From an uncultured Bacteroidales bacterium (GTDB lineage: Bacteria > Bacteroidota > Bacteroidia > Bacteroidales > Muribaculaceae): 64,000 nucleotides of DNA. This document shows positions 23,180 through 45,477 of the stretch, one piece after another (the stretch's first letter is position 1; every line of letters starts with the position of its first letter). The notes under the pieces were generated by a model that worked only from the letters and a program-made list of their open reading frames with translations, was not told the DNA's origin and did no database searches. The DNA lies in the NCBI GenBank assembly GCA_902779125.1, contig CACZAC010000023.1, forward strand, positions 35,318-99,317, in the 5' to 3' direction. The position numbers and the translations under genes are program-made.

Positions 23180-23255
23180 ACAACCAAAAACGATTGTCTT
23201 TTCTGAAAACAACCAAAAACGGTTGTTTCTTGAAAAAACAATCAAAAATGGTTGT
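23180..23255 (+). promoter_or_regulatory. Triple palindromic operator array upstream of satD
   Basis: Three 18-bp sites at 23180-23197, 23209-23226 and 23238-23255, spaced exactly 29 bp. Each reads ACAAYC-AAAAAY-GRTTGT, an inverted repeat of ACAACC and GGTTGT. The third overlaps the predicted -33 box of the satD promoter. Confidence 0.75.
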
Positions 23256-23274
23256 TTATATCATATATTATATA

Positions 23275-23298: not shown

Positions 23299-23958
23299 AT
23301 GTCATTCATTATGAAAGGAATCATTACCGGCGATATCGTGGATTCTTCCCAAATCAGCGCCGAATACCGGGGCGAGCTGCTCAAGTGCCTCAACACGATG
23401 GGCGATGAGTTGCAATGCGTCACACCATTCTCGATGGAACTGTTCCGCGGCGACAGTTTCCAACTGCTCATCGACGAGCCCAGTGCAGCGATAAAAATCG
23501 CCATCCTGCTGAGGGCGGGACTTATACGGCACACGGCAAGCAAGGAAAACGGCATGTGGGATGCGCGCATCTCGCTGGGCATCGGCAATGTCGAATTCCT
23601 GTCGGAACGTATCGTCACATCCGATGGCGAAGCCTTCCACTACTCAGGACGGCAACTTGATGAAATGGGCAAGCAACGCCTCGCTGTCAAGACGCCCTGG
23701 CAGGATGTGAACGATGAACTTGCACTCTCCACGGCATTTATCGACGACATCATCAACGGGTGGTCCAGCAAGCAGGCAGGGATGATTTACCTCGCACTCC
23801 GTCAGGACACCCCCAAGAAGGACATCGCCAAACTCATCGGCACGTCGGTGCAGAATGTGCGCAACGTGCTCTCTTCTGCCAAGGAAAGCCTTGTCCGGAA
23901 ATATATCGAACGCTACCGCGATATCATCATGAGCCACCATAGCCAACCGACGATATGA
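23299..23958 (+). CDS. SatD-like protein with C-terminal helix-turn-helix
   Basis: A 219-residue protein. The N-terminal part (GIITGDIVDSSQIS... FRGDSFQLLI) matches SatD-family proteins, whose fold resembles nucleotide cyclase or GGDEF-like domains. The C-terminal part (KKDIAKLIGTSVQNVRNVLSSAKESLVRKYIERY) looks like a sigma region 4/LuxR-type helix-turn-helix. An alternative start is at 23311 (MKGIITGD). It overlaps the DUF3307 gene by 4 bp (ATGA). The operator array in front suggests autoregulation; the signal it senses is unknown. Confidence 0.8.
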   Translation: MSFIMKGIITGDIVDSSQISAEYRGELLKCLNTMGDELQCVTPFSMELFRGDSFQLLIDEPSAAIKIAILLRAGLIRHTASKENGMWDARISLGIGNVEFLSERIVTSDGEAFHYSGRQLDEMGKQRLAVKTPWQDVNDELALSTAFIDDIINGWSSKQAGMIYLALRQDTPKKDIAKLIGTSVQNVRNVLSSAKESLVRKYIERYRDIIMSHHSQPTI

Positions 23959-24694: not shown

Positions 24695-26899
24695 ATGAAA
24701 AAAGCCATCAATACACTGATTTTTCTTGCTGCCAGCCTTGCTATCACGGCGAGTGCGCAATGTGGCATGACCAGTCCTCAGAAACATCATTCAGTCCGCA
24801 GCAATTGGGTGAACCCGCGCATCGGTACGGGAGGTCACGGCCATGTGTTCTATGGAGCCAACGTGCCTTTCGGCTATGTGCAGTTGGGACCAACCGAGCC
24901 CACTCAGGGTTGGGACTGGTGCTCAGGCTATCATGACAGCGACTCGGTGCTCATCGGCTTCGGCCACCAGCACCTGAGCGGCACCGGTATCGGCGACCTG
25001 GGCGACATTGCCTTGCTGCCCGTCACCAGCCGTGACCAGAAAGCGGTAATTTTCAGTCACAACGACGAGAGTGCCCATCCGGGCTACTACTCGGTGACAC
25101 TGCGCAACGGGGGTAAGCCTTACGTTCAGGTGAATTTGACTGCCACCAAGCGCACAGGCATGCACCGCTATGAATTCAATGTCGAACAAGACACTATCTA
25201 CCTGCGACTCGATTTGGGCCAAGGTATCGGATGGGACACCCCGAAACAAATGATGATGCAGCAAGCATCACCCAGGAGGATTGTCGGTTACCGTTATTCA
25301 TCGGGATGGGCAAGAGACCAGAAAGTCTTTTTTGTCATGGATTTCCAGCAAGATGTAACACTCGAGAAACTGAATGGCGACACCACGGGCATCATTTCGG
25401 CACCCAACTATCCCGCTACACCATTTCTCGTCAAAGTGGGACTGTCGGCAGTAAGCATCGATAATGCGATAGAGAACCTGACAGCTGAGAATCCTGACTG
25501 GGACTTCTATGACGTCGCCCGCAAAGCATGGTGCGCCTGGGCTGACGAACTGGATAAAATCCAGATTGCCACCGACAACGAGAATGACCGCAAGGTGTTC
25601 TACACGGCGCTCTATCACACGATGGTCGCCCCGTCAGTCTTCAGCGACGTGAACGGGCAATACCGCGGTGCCGACGGCAAGGTGCATCAAGGTGATTTCA
25701 CCAACTACACTACCCTATCGCTCTGGGACACCTACCGCGCCGCACATCCGTTGCAGACGCTCATCCACCGCGAGAAACAGCAGGACATGGCACAGACCTT
25801 CCTGCACATCTTTGAGCAACAGGGCAAACTGCCCGTGTGGCACCTGATGGGCAACGAGACCGACTGCATGGTGGGCAACCCCGGCGCGCCCGTGCTCGCC
25901 GACCTGGTGCTGAAGGGCTTTGACGTTGACAAGAAGGCTGCACTCAAGGCAATGACCACCAGCGCGATGCTCGATGAGCGCTCGATGGGACTGTTAAAGC
26001 AGTACGGCTATATCCCCTATGACCTGGAACCCGAAAAAGAGACCGTGGCACGCGGACTGGAGTATGCCCTTGCCGACTGGTGCATCGCCCAAGTGGCAAA
26101 AGCCGCCGGTGACCGTGAGAACTACAACTATTTCAACGAGCGCAGCCAGTCTTATCGCCACTACTTTGACAAGCAGACGCGTTTCATGCGCGGCAAGGAC
26201 TCGAAGGGCCATTTCCGTCCTGCGGCAGAATTCGACCCGCTATCGACCAAGCACCGTAACGACGACTACTGCGAGGGCAACGCCTGGCAATACACCTGGC
26301 TTGTGCCCCATGATGTGCATGGGCTGGTAAAACTCTTCGGCAGCGAGAAGGCGTTTATCCAGAAACTTGATTCGCTGTTCATCGTCGAGGGCAACCTGGG
26401 TGAAGAAGCGTCGCCCGACGTAAGCGGCCTTATCGGCCAGTATGCCCACGGCAACGAGCCCAGCCACCACATCATCTACATGTACAACTATGTGGGCCAG
26501 CCCTGGAAAGCCGCAAGACTCATCCGCCAAGTGCTGCGAGAGCAATACCGCAACGACTTTGACGGCCTGTCGGGCAACGAGGACGTGGGCCAGATGTCGG
26601 CATGGTATGTCCTGTCGTCTATCGGCCTGTATCAGGAGGAACCCGCCGGTGGCAAGTACATCATCGGCTCACCGCTGTTCAACGAGGCAACCCTCAACGT
26701 GGGCGACGGCAAGACGTTCACCGTCAAGGCGGTGAACAACAGCGACGAGAATATCTATGTCCAGAGCGCCACACTCAACGGCAAGCGCTACGACAAGAGC
26801 TACATCGACTACCGCGACATCATCGCCGGTGGCACGCTCGAACTCGTCATGGGTCCCAAACCCTCGAAATGGGGCACAAGCAAAAAGTCCAGACCGTAA
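24695..26899 (+). CDS. GH92 family alpha-mannosidase, first copy
   Basis: A 734-residue secreted glycoside hydrolase. A signal peptide (to about ASAQC, residue 23) is followed by the N-terminal beta-sandwich (WVNPRIGTGGHGHVFYGANVPFG), then an (alpha/alpha)6 barrel. The GH92 hallmark GLSGNEDVGQMSAWYVLSSIG near residue 620 contains catalytic acidic residues; HLMGNETDCMVG is also typical. GH92 enzymes are calcium-dependent exo-alpha-mannosidases acting on host or yeast mannans. It lies 17 bp after DUF3307 and may be cotranscribed with it. Confidence 0.93.
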   Translation: MKKAINTLIFLAASLAITASAQCGMTSPQKHHSVRSNWVNPRIGTGGHGHVFYGANVPFGYVQLGPTEPTQGWDWCSGYHDSDSVLIGFGHQHLSGTGIGDLGDIALLPVTSRDQKAVIFSHNDESAHPGYYSVTLRNGGKPYVQVNLTATKRTGMHRYEFNVEQDTIYLRLDLGQGIGWDTPKQMMMQQASPRRIVGYRYSSGWARDQKVFFVMDFQQDVTLEKLNGDTTGIISAPNYPATPFLVKVGLSAVSIDNAIENLTAENPDWDFYDVARKAWCAWADELDKIQIATDNENDRKVFYTALYHTMVAPSVFSDVNGQYRGADGKVHQGDFTNYTTLSLWDTYRAAHPLQTLIHREKQQDMAQTFLHIFEQQGKLPVWHLMGNETDCMVGNPGAPVLADLVLKGFDVDKKAALKAMTTSAMLDERSMGLLKQYGYIPYDLEPEKETVARGLEYALADWCIAQVAKAAGDRENYNYFNERSQSYRHYFDKQTRFMRGKDSKGHFRPAAEFDPLSTKHRNDDYCEGNAWQYTWLVPHDVHGLVKLFGSEKAFIQKLDSLFIVEGNLGEEASPDVSGLIGQYAHGNEPSHHIIYMYNYVGQPWKAARLIRQVLREQYRNDFDGLSGNEDVGQMSAWYVLSSIGLYQEEPAGGKYIIGSPLFNEATLNVGDGKTFTVKAVNNSDENIYVQSATLNGKRYDKSYIDYRDIIAGGTLELVMGPKPSKWGTSKKSRP

Positions 26900-26958
26900 T
26901 GGGTACACATTAACCTGTCGTCTGCTACTGGCAACAAAAACATGCAAAACATCGGACA

Positions 26959-27062
26959 ATGTGATTTCAAACGGATAAAAACCACGAATTATGTGATTTT
27001 TTCATCCAAAAATATTGGAATTATGTGATTTTTGACGTATTTTTGTTTCCGATAATGTGATT
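26959..27062 (+). promoter_or_regulatory. Four ATGTGATT sites at exact 32-bp spacing over the AAA ATPase promoter
   Basis: ATGTGATT occurs at 26959, 26991, 27023 and 27055. Only this word, with an A/T-rich lead, is conserved; the 24 bp between copies differ. The third copy lies just before the -7 box and the fourth near the expected transcription start. Confidence 0.75.
27038..27046 (+). promoter_or_regulatory. -7 box of the AAA ATPase gene
   Basis: TATTTTTGT fits TAnnTTTGY, 29 bp before the ATG at 27075. Confidence 0.65.
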
Positions 27063-27074
27063 AAAGATAGATTT

Positions 27075-28412
27075 ATGCTTAAGCGAAAAATTGATAATTT
27101 CCTCATTGAGTGGAAGAAACGTCCTGAAAGGAAGCCACTCATTGTCAAGGGGGCGCGACAAGTGGGCAAAACGATGTCAATCCGGCACTTTGCCCAGCAG
27201 CATTATAAGCATGTTATCGAAATCAATTTCCTGCTGCAAAGTCAATTTCAAGGCATCTTTGAAGATGGCTACGAGGTTGACAGCATCATCAAGAATATTT
27301 CACTGCTCAATCCGCGACTTGACATTAAACCTGGTGAGACACTCCTGTTTTTTGATGAACTGCAGGCTTGTCCCGACTGCGCCACCAGCCTGAAATCATT
27401 CAAACAGGATGGCCGTTACGATGTCATCTGTTCTGGCTCACTGATGGGTGTCTATTACCAGCAAATTGAGTCCAATAGTGTCGGTTTCAAGGAAGATTAC
27501 CTGATGCACTCGATGGACTTTGAGGAGTTTCTGTGGGCTAACGGCTACGATAACAGGCTGATTGATGAGCTCTATCACCACATGGCTAACGTCAAGCCCC
27601 TCTCGTCAATCATGATGCACCGCATGACCGAATTGTTCCGTAATTACATGGTCATTGGAGGCATGCCCGAAGTTGTCAACACTTTTGTAACCCAAAACAA
27701 CTTCAACAACACGTTATCACTCCAGCGGCAACTACTTCTCGACTATGAGGAGGACATCACTAAATACGCCTTAGGAATGGAAAAAGGAAAAGTGCTCTCG
27801 GTTTACCGTCACATCTCTACCTTCCTTGCCCAGGAAAACAAGCGTTTCCAAATCACTAAGTTATCTCCAACCGCCCGCAACAGGGCATACATCGGCGCTA
27901 TTGAGTGGCTTAACAATGCTGGAATTATCAACGTGTGTTACTGCTTGCATGAGCTGGCACTACCATTAAGGGGAAATTATGATTCCAAATTATACAAAGT
28001 ATATTATCGTGACTCTGGATTGCTCATAGCTTCACTTGACGAAGAAGCTCAAGATGACCTAAGGAGAAACCGCAACTTTTCCACTTATAAAGGGGCCATC
28101 TATGAGAATATCGTGGCCGATATGCTCGTGAAACAAGGTTACGACCTCTACTACTATCGCAATGACAGATCATCGATAGAAATGGATTTCTTCGTCAGGA
28201 GCGCTAATCACTTGTGGCCTGTTGAGGTTAAAGCCAGCAACACTGCAAGCGCTTCTTTAAAAAAACTCACCGACCCGTCAAGCAAGGCGCATCCCGATAT
28301 TAAGAACGGTATCAAATTGTGCGCTTCCAACATCGGATTCAACGGTCAGTTTTACACTTTCCCGTATTTTCTTACCTTCTTGTTAAAGCGTTGGCTGCGT
28401 GAACAAGAATAA
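27075..28412 (+). CDS. AAA-type ATPase with DUF4143-like C-terminal domain
   Basis: A 445-residue protein (start 27075; 27057 is an upstream alternative). Walker A is GARQVGKT at residues 26-33 and Walker B LLFFDELQACP near 98. The C-terminal part holds AIYENIVADMLVKQGYDLYYYR and MDFFV...PVEVKA, the nuclease-like core of DUF4143. Such ATPases are common and often mobile in Bacteroidetes; their role is unclear. It is visibly more AT-rich than the GH92 genes on both sides and carries its own operator array, which suggests later insertion. Confidence 0.9.
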   Translation: MLKRKIDNFLIEWKKRPERKPLIVKGARQVGKTMSIRHFAQQHYKHVIEINFLLQSQFQGIFEDGYEVDSIIKNISLLNPRLDIKPGETLLFFDELQACPDCATSLKSFKQDGRYDVICSGSLMGVYYQQIESNSVGFKEDYLMHSMDFEEFLWANGYDNRLIDELYHHMANVKPLSSIMMHRMTELFRNYMVIGGMPEVVNTFVTQNNFNNTLSLQRQLLLDYEEDITKYALGMEKGKVLSVYRHISTFLAQENKRFQITKLSPTARNRAYIGAIEWLNNAGIINVCYCLHELALPLRGNYDSKLYKVYYRDSGLLIASLDEEAQDDLRRNRNFSTYKGAIYENIVADMLVKQGYDLYYYRNDRSSIEMDFFVRSANHLWPVEVKASNTASASLKKLTDPSSKAHPDIKNGIKLCASNIGFNGQFYTFPYFLTFLLKRWLREQE

Positions 28413-28420
28413 ACCTAATA

Positions 28421-30688
28421 ATGATGAAAAGAATATTTATTTTGGGAGCTATTTTAGCTTGGAGTCTTGTAGCAATGGCTGCTGAACTGGAGCCGGTAGA
28501 TTATGTGAATCCGCTGGTGGGGTCGCAGTCGAGTTTTCAACTGTCAACGGGCAACACCTACCCCGCCATCGCTATGCCCTGGGGCATGAACTTCTGGGTA
28601 CCGCAGACGGGCAAGAACGGCGATGGCTGGCAATATACCTACACAGCCAACAAGATACGCGGCTTCAAGCAGACGCATCAGCCCAGCCCGTGGATTAACG
28701 ACTACGGCCAGTTCTCGCTGATGCCTACTGTTGGAGAGCCCGTGTGGGACGAGAATGAGCGCGCCAGCTGGTTCTCACACAAGGCCGAGGTGGCAACGCC
28801 CTATTACTACAAGGTCTATCTTGCCGACTATGACGTAGTTGCAGAGGTGGCGCCCACCGAGCGTGCCGCCATCCTGCGGTTCACCTTCCCCGAGACCGAC
28901 CAGGCCAACGTCGTCATAGACGCTTTTGACAAGGGCTCCGTCGTCAGGATTGACCCCGAGAATCATGCGGTATATGGATACTCGACCCGAAACAGTAGCG
29001 GCGTGCCTGAGGGCTTCAAAAACTTCTTTATCATTCAATTTGACAAGCCTTTCTCATCGTTCAGCGTTGTTGAAGACAGTATCATTCACGAGGGAGAAAA
29101 GGGCATCGGGTGCAACCATGCCGGAGCCATCGTGACGTTCAACACCCGTCGAGGTGAGCAGGTCAATGCACGCGTCGCCTCATCGTTCATCAGCCTTGAC
29201 CAACCCCTGGTCAACTTGCGGGAATTGGCTGATGATGACCTGGAAACCGTCAAGGAGAAAGGACGCCAGCGCTGGAACGACGTGCTGGGGCGCATTGAGG
29301 TTGAGGATAGCGACATCGACCACCTGCGCACCTTCTACTCGTGCCTGTACCGCTCGGTGCTATTTCCCCGCAGTTTCTATGAAATTGATGCCAACGGCAA
29401 TCCTGTTCATTACAGTCCTTACAACGGTCAGGTGCTGCCAGGCAGGATGTTTACCGATACAGGCTTTTGGGACACCTTCCGCAGTCTGTTTCCGCTGGTT
29501 GACCTGATGTACCCCACGATGGGCGCATGGATGCAGGAAGGACTGGTGAACACCTATTTGGAGAGTGGTTTCCTGCCCGAGTGGGCGAGCCCCGGACATC
29601 GCAACTGCATGGTGGGCAACAACAGTGCCTCGGTGGTTGCCGACGCCTACCTGAAGGGCTTGCGTGGCTATGATGTCGATAAACTGTGGGAGGCCGTGGT
29701 GCATGGCACTACCGCCGTGCATCCTCAAGTGCAATCGACGGGACGTTTGGGACACGAGTATTACAACGAACTGGGTTATATTCCCTATGATGTGGGCATC
29801 AAGGAGAGCGTGGCAAGAACGCTGGAGTATGCCTACGACGACTGGTGCATCTACCGTCTGGGCAAGGCCCTGGGCAAGCCCAAGAGCGAAATCAAGGTCT
29901 ATGCCGAGCGTGCGATGAACTACCGCAAAGTATTTGATGCCGAATCCAAACTCATGCGCGGCAGGCTCAAGGACGGGTCTTTCCAGTCACCCTTCAGCCC
30001 GTTGAAGTGGGGCGACGCGTTCACCGAGGGCAACAGCTGGCACTATACCTGGAGCGTGTTCCACGACCCGCAGGGCCTCATCGACCTGATGGGCGGCAAG
30101 AAGACGTTCTGCCAGATGCTCGATTCAGTATTCGCCGTGCCGCCAGTGTTTGACGACAGTTACTACGGCTTCACCATCCACGAGATACGCGAGATGCAGA
30201 TTATGAACATGGGCAACTATGCCCACGGTAACCAACCCATCCAGCACATGATTTACCTCTACAACTACGGTGGCCAGCCGTGGAAGGCACAGTACTGGGT
30301 GCGCCAGACCATGGACCGCCTCTACAGTGCCACCCCCGACGGCTACTGTGGCGATGAGGACAACGGGCAGACCTCGGCATGGTATGTGTTTTCGGCGCTG
30401 GGATTCTACCCCGTGTGCCCCGGCAGTAACCAGTATGTCATCGGCACCCCCTATTTTGACCACGTCACGTTGAACCTCGAGAACGGCAAGCAGGTGACCG
30501 TCACCCGCGAGGGCAAGGGCTGCTACATCCAGTCGATGACCATCGACGGCAAGCCCTACACCCGCAATTATCTCGAGCATGAGCGCCTGCTACAGGGCTG
30601 TGACATCCGCTTCGTCATGGGTGACACCCCCAACACCAAGCGCGGCACCGCCCCCCGTGACCTGCCCTACTCCTTCTCCAACAAGTAA
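28421..30688 (+). CDS. GH92 family alpha-mannosidase, second copy
   Basis: A 755-residue secreted enzyme with signal peptide (to about AMAAE, residue 21). It has the beta-sandwich YVNPLVGSQSSFQLSTGNTYPAIAMPWGMNFW and the catalytic region YCGDEDNGQTSAWYVFSALGFYP. HRNCMVGNN replaces the NETDCMVG of the first copy, so the two are distant paralogues likely with different linkage preference. It begins 8 bp after the ATPase stop. An ATG 3 bp downstream could also be the start. Confidence 0.93.
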   Translation: MMKRIFILGAILAWSLVAMAAELEPVDYVNPLVGSQSSFQLSTGNTYPAIAMPWGMNFWVPQTGKNGDGWQYTYTANKIRGFKQTHQPSPWINDYGQFSLMPTVGEPVWDENERASWFSHKAEVATPYYYKVYLADYDVVAEVAPTERAAILRFTFPETDQANVVIDAFDKGSVVRIDPENHAVYGYSTRNSSGVPEGFKNFFIIQFDKPFSSFSVVEDSIIHEGEKGIGCNHAGAIVTFNTRRGEQVNARVASSFISLDQPLVNLRELADDDLETVKEKGRQRWNDVLGRIEVEDSDIDHLRTFYSCLYRSVLFPRSFYEIDANGNPVHYSPYNGQVLPGRMFTDTGFWDTFRSLFPLVDLMYPTMGAWMQEGLVNTYLESGFLPEWASPGHRNCMVGNNSASVVADAYLKGLRGYDVDKLWEAVVHGTTAVHPQVQSTGRLGHEYYNELGYIPYDVGIKESVARTLEYAYDDWCIYRLGKALGKPKSEIKVYAERAMNYRKVFDAESKLMRGRLKDGSFQSPFSPLKWGDAFTEGNSWHYTWSVFHDPQGLIDLMGGKKTFCQMLDSVFAVPPVFDDSYYGFTIHEIREMQIMNMGNYAHGNQPIQHMIYLYNYGGQPWKAQYWVRQTMDRLYSATPDGYCGDEDNGQTSAWYVFSALGFYPVCPGSNQYVIGTPYFDHVTLNLENGKQVTVTREGKGCYIQSMTIDGKPYTRNYLEHERLLQGCDIRFVMGDTPNTKRGTAPRDLPYSFSNK

Positions 30689-45123: not shown

Positions 45124-45390
45124 TAAGCCCGTAGGGCTGTCAGGGTATAGGCAGAAGTGGAGCGAAGCGGAACTCCTGCAGATGATGACCCGCCCCGACA
45201 TGATAGCCCCGTTAGGGGCGACACGCTATGCATCGGCAACACGTCGTGTATCAACGATTCACTGTCGCCCCGATGGGGCTAAGACTTCAATGCGCACTAT
45301 TGCAGGGGTTGCACTCGGCTTCGCCTCGTTACACCCCTGCCTATACCCTGGTCGCTCCTCACGGAGCTTTCCCCACACACGAATCATTTC
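45124..45390. repeat. Long direct repeat, copy B (partner at 42468-42731)
   Basis: Matches copy A over about 265 bp with few differences. It runs into the 44-bp tandem array that begins at 45346. Confidence 0.8.
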
Positions 45391-45477
45391 CCTGGTCGAT
45401 CCTCACGGAGCTGTCCACACACACTAATCATTTCCCTGGTCAATCCTCACGGAGCTTTCCACACACATTAATCATTT
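45346..45477. repeat. Three tandem copies of a 44-bp unit
   Basis: Units begin at 45346, 45390 and 45434 with CCCTGGTC. Each contains a hairpin word TCCTCACGGAGC followed by CACACA and AATCATTT. Only one such unit exists at the end of copy A (42731). Confidence 0.8.

Follow-up and report, generated by a model that had tools for sequence, protein, structure and literature searches.

A 32-bp repeat array over the putative promoter of a PDC-S01 ATPase gene: a candidate operator for the ATPase itself

The window, that is, the whole 64-kb stretch of DNA analysed here, contains a cassette in which an array of short direct repeats precedes an ATPase gene, the two lying between a pair of GH92 genes assigned by Pfam at 24695-26899 and 28421-30688. 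The features on which the argument relies are, by position:

26900..28420, + strand: cassette of array and ATPase gene, between two GH92 genes that are adjacent in relatives
26953..26968, + strand: array copy 1, with the word ATGTGATT at 26959-26966; width taken from the clade profile of 223 copies
26976..26980, + strand: A/T block of spacer 1, 16-20 bp past the TGTG core, read from the sequence
26985..27000, + strand: array copy 2, word at 26991-26998; width from the clade profile
27008-27012 and 27040-27044, + strand: A/T blocks of spacers 2 and 3, 16-20 bp past the TGTG core
27015..27017, + strand: putative -33 element TTG, weak, inferred by comparing the sequence with the consensus
27017..27032, + strand: array copy 3, word at 27023-27030; between the putative -33 and -7 elements
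27038..27045, + strand: putative -7 element TATTTTTG, fitting TAnnTTTG, 14 bp past the start of the copy-3 TGTG core
27049..27064, + strand: array copy 4, word at 27055-27062; near the inferred transcription start
27075..28412, stop included, + strand: PDC-S01 ATPase gene with AAA_14 and DUF4143; 445 aa, AlphaFold2 pLDDT 88.8
27075..27539, + strand: AAA+ domain, about residues 1-155; P-loop G26-T33, Walker B D94 E95
27783..28007, + strand: winged-helix region, about residues 237-311, from the secondary structure of the model; best covariation with the word
28008..28409, + strand: PD-(D/E)XK-like domain, about residues 312-445, with E344, D371, E384 and K386

In 12 same-genus relatives, the GH92 pair stands side by side, -10 to 75 bp apart and without the cassette; about 1.5 kb holding the array and the ATPase gene separates the pair in the window's genome and in G330, which is 96% identical to it in the second GH92 gene. 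These figures come from inspection of 25 of 30 loci, which comprise 12 with the pair side by side, one with the cassette, two with gaps of ~0.3 and 0.55 kb, and 10 that are uninformative. Array and ATPase gene are present or absent together. No second gene is apparent in 26900-28420, where the open reading frames of at least 60 aa are the ATPase frame and an overlapping frame of 100 aa.

The protein exceeds the Pfam gathering cut-offs for both of its named parts, DUF4143 (PF13635, 102.4 bits against a cut-off of 28.1) and AAA_14 (PF13173, 83.5 against 27). It is also a member of PDC-S01 by profile, matching the PADLOC profile PDLC04786 over residues 1-439 with an E-value of 1.7e-153, and PDC-S01 profiles are matched by all 10 other subfamily representatives tested. 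By this family assignment the window ATPase is a phage-defence candidate. In its accessible portion, PMC12988326 presents PDC-S01 as a fusion of an ATPase with the PD-(D/E)XK superfamily that ranks fourth in frequency among the defences of prokaryotes, and adds that most PDCs of the core defensome still await validation. The P-loop, Walker B and C-terminal D...ExK motifs are conserved across relatives: E344, D371, E384 and K386 are all invariant in 41 relatives, and among 29 diverse members E344, E384 and K386 are invariant and D371 nearly so. The D...ExK motif falls in an alpha/beta C-terminal domain of the AlphaFold2 model, a domain predicted to be nuclease-like, with weak profile matches at this PD-(D/E)XK-like end. 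The boundaries of the AAA+ and winged-helix parts are our own reading of the model, in which residues 121-130 and 251-270 are among the lowest-confidence blocks.

The word ATGTGATT begins at 26959, 26991, 27023 and 27055 on the + strand, a period of exactly 32 bp. Its number in the window is unremarkable, since the six copies found, against 3.0 expected, are reached in 6 of 100 shuffles; the striking part is the spacing. None of 20,000 dinucleotide shuffles of the 175-bp upstream region contained any 8-mer three to four times at equal spacings of 9-60 bp, and these positions and shuffles together bear out the claim of the earlier note that four sites lie exactly 32 bp apart. When the 64-kb window was scanned for 8-mers of more than two letter types, no 8-mer but ATGTGATT occurred as four evenly spaced copies in the 12-60 bp range. 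A CRISPR array was considered and rejected: such arrays have repeats of ~23 bp or more, unique spacers and cas genes, while the units here are ~16 bp and occur in two to five copies. Two other repeats in the window may be recorded. At 23180-23258, three copies of a palindrome like ACAACCAAAAACGGTTGT lie 29 bp apart upstream of an open reading frame (23299-23958; 219 aa, no Pfam match) and, with TATAGTTTTG following the last of them, look like a second, different periodic promoter array. At 45346-45477, a 44-bp unit stands in three tandem copies at a place with no open reading frame of at least 100 aa.

The array extends far beyond this locus. A sample of the window's clade, comprising the best 80 of 585 relatives from one named genome collection (54-81% identity), spans Bacteroidota, Bacillota, Spirochaetota and Fibrobacterota as labelled; single phylum labels may be wrong, because many of these relatives are metagenome bins, and the clade array is also seen in Eubacterium sp. 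14-2 and Roseburia inulinivorans, which are not labelled as bins. One of the 80 (L201) had no upstream DNA and was left out of the array test; of the remaining 79, 68 score above 20 shuffles, and in 67 of these the period is 32/33 bp. In 72 of the 80 members, window included, two or more TGTG cores keep register, and the 151 core-to-core intervals are 32 bp in 108 cases and 33 bp in 39. Aligning 223 clade copies shows that the repeat unit is longer than the 8-bp word: informative columns run from about -7 to +9 around TGTG, giving ~16 bp with a consensus of roughly [CG]G[AG]A[AT]3TGTGA[AT]2, of which the search pattern itself fixed TGTG, two A/T before it and one after. The strict clade pattern has four occurrences, in three of 295 order-level genomes, and its reversed form none; two of the three genomes have an intact PDC-S01 open reading frame behind the array. 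The third (G023, L225 1502-1600) shows a clade array before a short remnant resembling both ends of the ATPase gene, and a further PDC-S01-like open reading frame lies nearby on the opposite strand.

The earlier note also held that the DNA between copies is unrelated, which fits part of each spacer. Over the 108 intervals of 32 bp, columns 10-13 and 21-24 are near random (0.01-0.18 bits); the claim fails for columns 16-20, a conserved A/T-rich block some 16-20 bp past each core that carries 0.5-0.94 bits, a signal that is in part the -7 box of the last spacer. Because this block sits between the cores, A/T-rich stretches recur about every 11-12 bp, as if one face of the DNA were contacted, to judge from base composition. 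A/T-rich spacer parts at the same places are what a decayed tandem duplication might leave behind, yet other parts of the unit are near random while the core is still in register. The shuffles above and the recurrence of the array across phyla exclude chance, and the joint likelihood of chance or decayed duplication is negligible.

The position of the array relative to the gene is equally regular. The earlier note had placed the array over the ATPase promoter, and this location holds up as far as consensus matching can tell: a putative -7 box, TATTTTTG at 27038-27045, lies between copies 3 and 4 and matches TAnnTTTG, the Bacteroidota -7 box consensus. The likely start codon is the ATG at 27075; an in-frame GTG at 27057 falls inside array copy 4. 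Across the window's clade, 29 of 43 TAnnTTTG sites start 14 bp downstream of the first base of a TGTG core, the layout to which the window belongs, and TATAAT starts at core+5 in 11 of 16 cases, the last array copy therefore reading TGTGATATAAT. Judged by consensus only, the same array is laid over two promoter types. In 56 of the 79 clade relatives used for a test of strand and side, the array is upstream and on the sense strand in 50, and an antisense array or one downstream of the gene was found in 0 of the 56. The sense orientation of all 50 positive genes is what one would look for if the repeats acted in RNA, as a leader or attenuator. This role is highly improbable, as transcription is inferred to begin downstream of most copies, the promoter being located between the last two copies or its -10 element inside the last one.

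The same data bear on the proposal that the array is mainly a working site of the enzyme, for loading, cutting or capture in defence or in movement of the cassette. The nuclease-like domain with its conserved motif, the presence or absence of the cassette as a unit, and a MuB filament among the fold matches of the model (rank 46) all lend it some credit. The lack of a downstream array in all 56 genes means that the arrays are not paired transposon ends, and it counts against a working site, as do the recurrent offsets to promoter elements of two types. On balance we regard a working site as unlikely.

Arrays are not confined to the window's clade. DUF4143 is matched ten times in the window's own genome, counting the gene studied here, and several of these genes have a different upstream word at similar spacing. 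For a wider survey, 99 own-genome and same-genus loci were taken out of 142 matches, and 99 of 102 open reading frames were scored for ungapped self-matches at 18-60 bp in ~275 bp upstream of each, two having been dropped for lack of a P-loop and one for short upstream DNA. Among these PDC-S01-like genes, 69 of 99 beat 50 shuffles, with the best spacing at 32-34 bp in 54 of the 69; against 20 shuffles, 70 of the same 99 exceed. A score of at least 12 is reached by 65 of the 99 family genes versus 17 of 192 other open reading frames from the same loci and the window. The control spacings are scattered, with only 3 of 17 at 32-34 bp, and in those three, with periods of 33 or 34 bp, a divergent neighbour merely shows the array of the ATPase from the other strand.

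The frequency and period of the array vary by subfamily. The window's branch has it in 36 of 43 genes at 32-34 bp; two further subfamilies have it in 10 of 12 genes at 32/33 bp and in 9 of 11 (eight at 32 bp, one at 54). Another shows it in 6 of 6 at 23 bp or its double, and lower proportions, 4 of 12 at 39-42 bp and 3 of 10 at 40 bp, occur in two more; a subfamily of three has none, and of two singletons one has an array at 44 bp and the other does not. A direct array was undetected in 30 of the 99 genes, including 7/7 L001-type and 3/3 L058-type genes, whose representatives L001 and L058 still match PDC-S01. The earlier note had named an absence of periodic motifs upstream of homologues as the finding that would speak against it; such a motif is carried by the 69 of 99 same-genus and own-genome genes and by the 68 of 79 closer relatives. 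Inverted repeats were rejected as a general rule. They beat 20 shuffles in 20 of the 69 array genes, of which 9 belong to a single cluster of 10, and in 10 of the 30 genes without an array, so that palindromes are a trait of particular clusters. In one PDC-S01 cluster (L050-L055, L060-L064 and L070), inverted repeats beat shuffles in 11 of 12 and the units look palindromic.

Outside this sample the pattern is patchier. Among 15 plasmid or phage relatives hand-chosen from 71 records, 10 beat 50 shuffles, all at 32/33 bp or its double, and include Collinsella, Agathobacter, Fusobacterium animalis, Criblamydia, Vibrio, Acinetobacter and Glaesserella; Ruminococcus albus, F. vincentii, Parabacteroides, Vescimonas and one phage contig were not above the shuffles. 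In the two samples that follow, ties with the shuffle maximum were scored as misses despite visible repeats (L305, L284, L308). Plasmid relatives of another subfamily beat shuffles in one case of five, at 40 bp. In 12 genomes not labelled Bacteroidota, 16 of 30 genes beat shuffles, 11 of the 30 being window-clade loci already counted; of the remaining 19, 6 exceed shuffles, 3 of them at 32/33 bp. The claim of an array is thus strongest in Bacteroidota and in the window's clade. Phage decoys were considered and rejected: the pattern turned up in 16 viral stretches, in 2 of which a PDC-S01 open reading frame follows it, and the other 14 have none on the stretch examined, several of these matches lying in apparent coding sequence or in another repeat. 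A 250-kb viral contig (L230, ~1004) carries a three-copy GAAAAATGTG array at ~32 bp, with no PDC-S01 open reading frame on the stretch examined.

What, then, reads the array? A global regulator was rejected, as the window's own genome holds the exact pair ATGTGATT-N24-ATGTGATT nowhere but at this locus, where three such pairs overlap. Allowing up to 3 mismatches gives 44 matches versus 7 for the reversed pattern, an imbalance that may reflect base composition. A separate host-encoded regulator that binds the array and controls the ATPase gene has a precedent in RptR, a dedicated repressor acting on repeats in a defence promoter (PMC12255303, in its accessible part). Such a factor predicts the opposite of the observed distribution of words, and is disfavoured on that ground: paralogues within one genome have different words, and relatives in different phyla have one in common. 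The 69 cross-genome pairs above 55% protein identity have on average 10.1 of 12 bases in common, against 8.3 of 12 for 103 same-genome pairs and 8.1 of 12 for the most distant pairs. Word similarity drops with protein distance (rho -0.246, with 0/300 permutations as low), a figure in which shared ancestry is left in.

When parts of the protein were taken separately in 54 genes, the winged helix gave a partial correlation of -0.146 (3/300 permutations as low; exploratory, the best of four tests) and the AAA+ domain one of -0.076 (22/300), and no word correlation was found for the helical part (105/300) or the nuclease domain (255/300). The top 15-residue stretches, ranked without permutation, fall mostly in an AAA+ loop (121-145) and the winged helix (256-295), with stretches 41-60 and 76-90 also within the top twelve of the sliding windows. 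Covariation is thus best with the ATPase's own winged helix, which, together with the absence of an apparent second gene from the cassette, leaves a host regulator quite unlikely.

The specificity of the arrays to branches of the family suggests instead that the ATPase recognises and controls its own gene. Self-binding, which the earlier note had left as an open possibility, is now the best-supported reading of these sequences, because one word is kept across phyla, words are paralogue-specific, the cassette appears to hold a single gene, and the winged helix covaries with the word. Specifically, we propose, at a probability of roughly 0.68, that the repeats form an operator through which a single-gene system regulates itself, the ATPase binding there through its winged helix and repressing. 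The PDC-S01 protein would recognise the word of its clade through the winged helix, probably aided by the AAA+ loop, and would occupy between two and five copies, spaced by three turns of the helix and all on the same DNA face, presumably in a cooperative manner. The bound protein would assemble over the core promoter and so keep its own gene low. Displacement, titration or switching of the protein, with nucleotide state or phage infection as possible causes, would end the repression. A simple rule is opposed by the 30 array-less genes of 99 and by the other non-Bacteroidota genes, with 6 of 19 positive; autoregulation does not explain why some subfamilies lack an array, why others use 23 or 40 bp, or why L230 carries an orphan array.

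A doubtful, more far-reaching idea is that the array is part of the immune mechanism, an AAA+ nuclease oligomer parked on its clade-specific array serving as self-address and sensor. If this were true, the replication of phage DNA, the breakdown of host DNA or a loss of nucleotides would strip or titrate the oligomer, releasing both promoter and nuclease, and same-genome paralogues would be orthogonal sentries, each with its own word in a fixed 2-, 3- or 4-turn register. Apart from mechanism, the arrays allow a DNA ligand to be predicted from sequence, one clade at a time, for many members of the family, which opens binding, induction and the geometry of the oligomer to direct tests. They further indicate where the unit begins at its 5′ end, a point relevant to cloning with or without its own control region. 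Were the ATPase its own repressor, a single gene would join sensor, regulator and probable effector.

In the accessible text of PMC12988326 no cis-acting DNA element is given for PDC-S01, the word "promoter" being absent and its 4 uses of "repeat" unrelated. DUF4143 is mentioned in the available part of PMC4406477, and the literature searched, which included few subscription journals and no bioRxiv preprints and was in part accessible only in portions, yielded no description of repeats upstream of DUF4143/PDC-S01 genes. The nearest precedent found, by analogy, for repeats in a defence promoter is RptR, whose direct repeats, as described in the accessible portion of PMC12255303, cover the -10 box of a defence promoter in Type I restriction-modification islands, where cooperative binding brings about repression; the repressor, a small separate protein, is the first gene of the unit under its control, and its 9-bp repeats are built around a conserved 6-bp palindrome. 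Like those of RptR, the window's direct repeats overlap the core promoter, whose elements are assigned by consensus only. Unlike them, they have a period of 32/33 bp and clade-specific words, and no separate regulator is seen: 26900-28420 contains no separate small repressor gene of the RptR type, and the ATPase is the candidate binder. In structure, the best Foldseek match of the model is 2qen, the Walker-type ATPase PABY2304 of Pyrococcus abyssi (E 7.9e-8, TM 0.43/0.53), which has 350 residues compared with 445 in the window ATPase. Foldseek also returned ORC subunits and 2qby, a structure of Cdc6/Orc1 bound to origin DNA (E 7.1e-6), a match that lends the proposed DNA binding some support. 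Orc1/Cdc6 proteins bind repeated origin boxes, and the window ATPase resembles them in having an AAA+ domain followed by a winged helix, in the same order and fold; it differs in its low TM-scores, 0.22-0.34 for the ORC/Cdc6 chains listed, in its added nuclease-like domain, and in the location of its repeats at a putative promoter rather than an origin.
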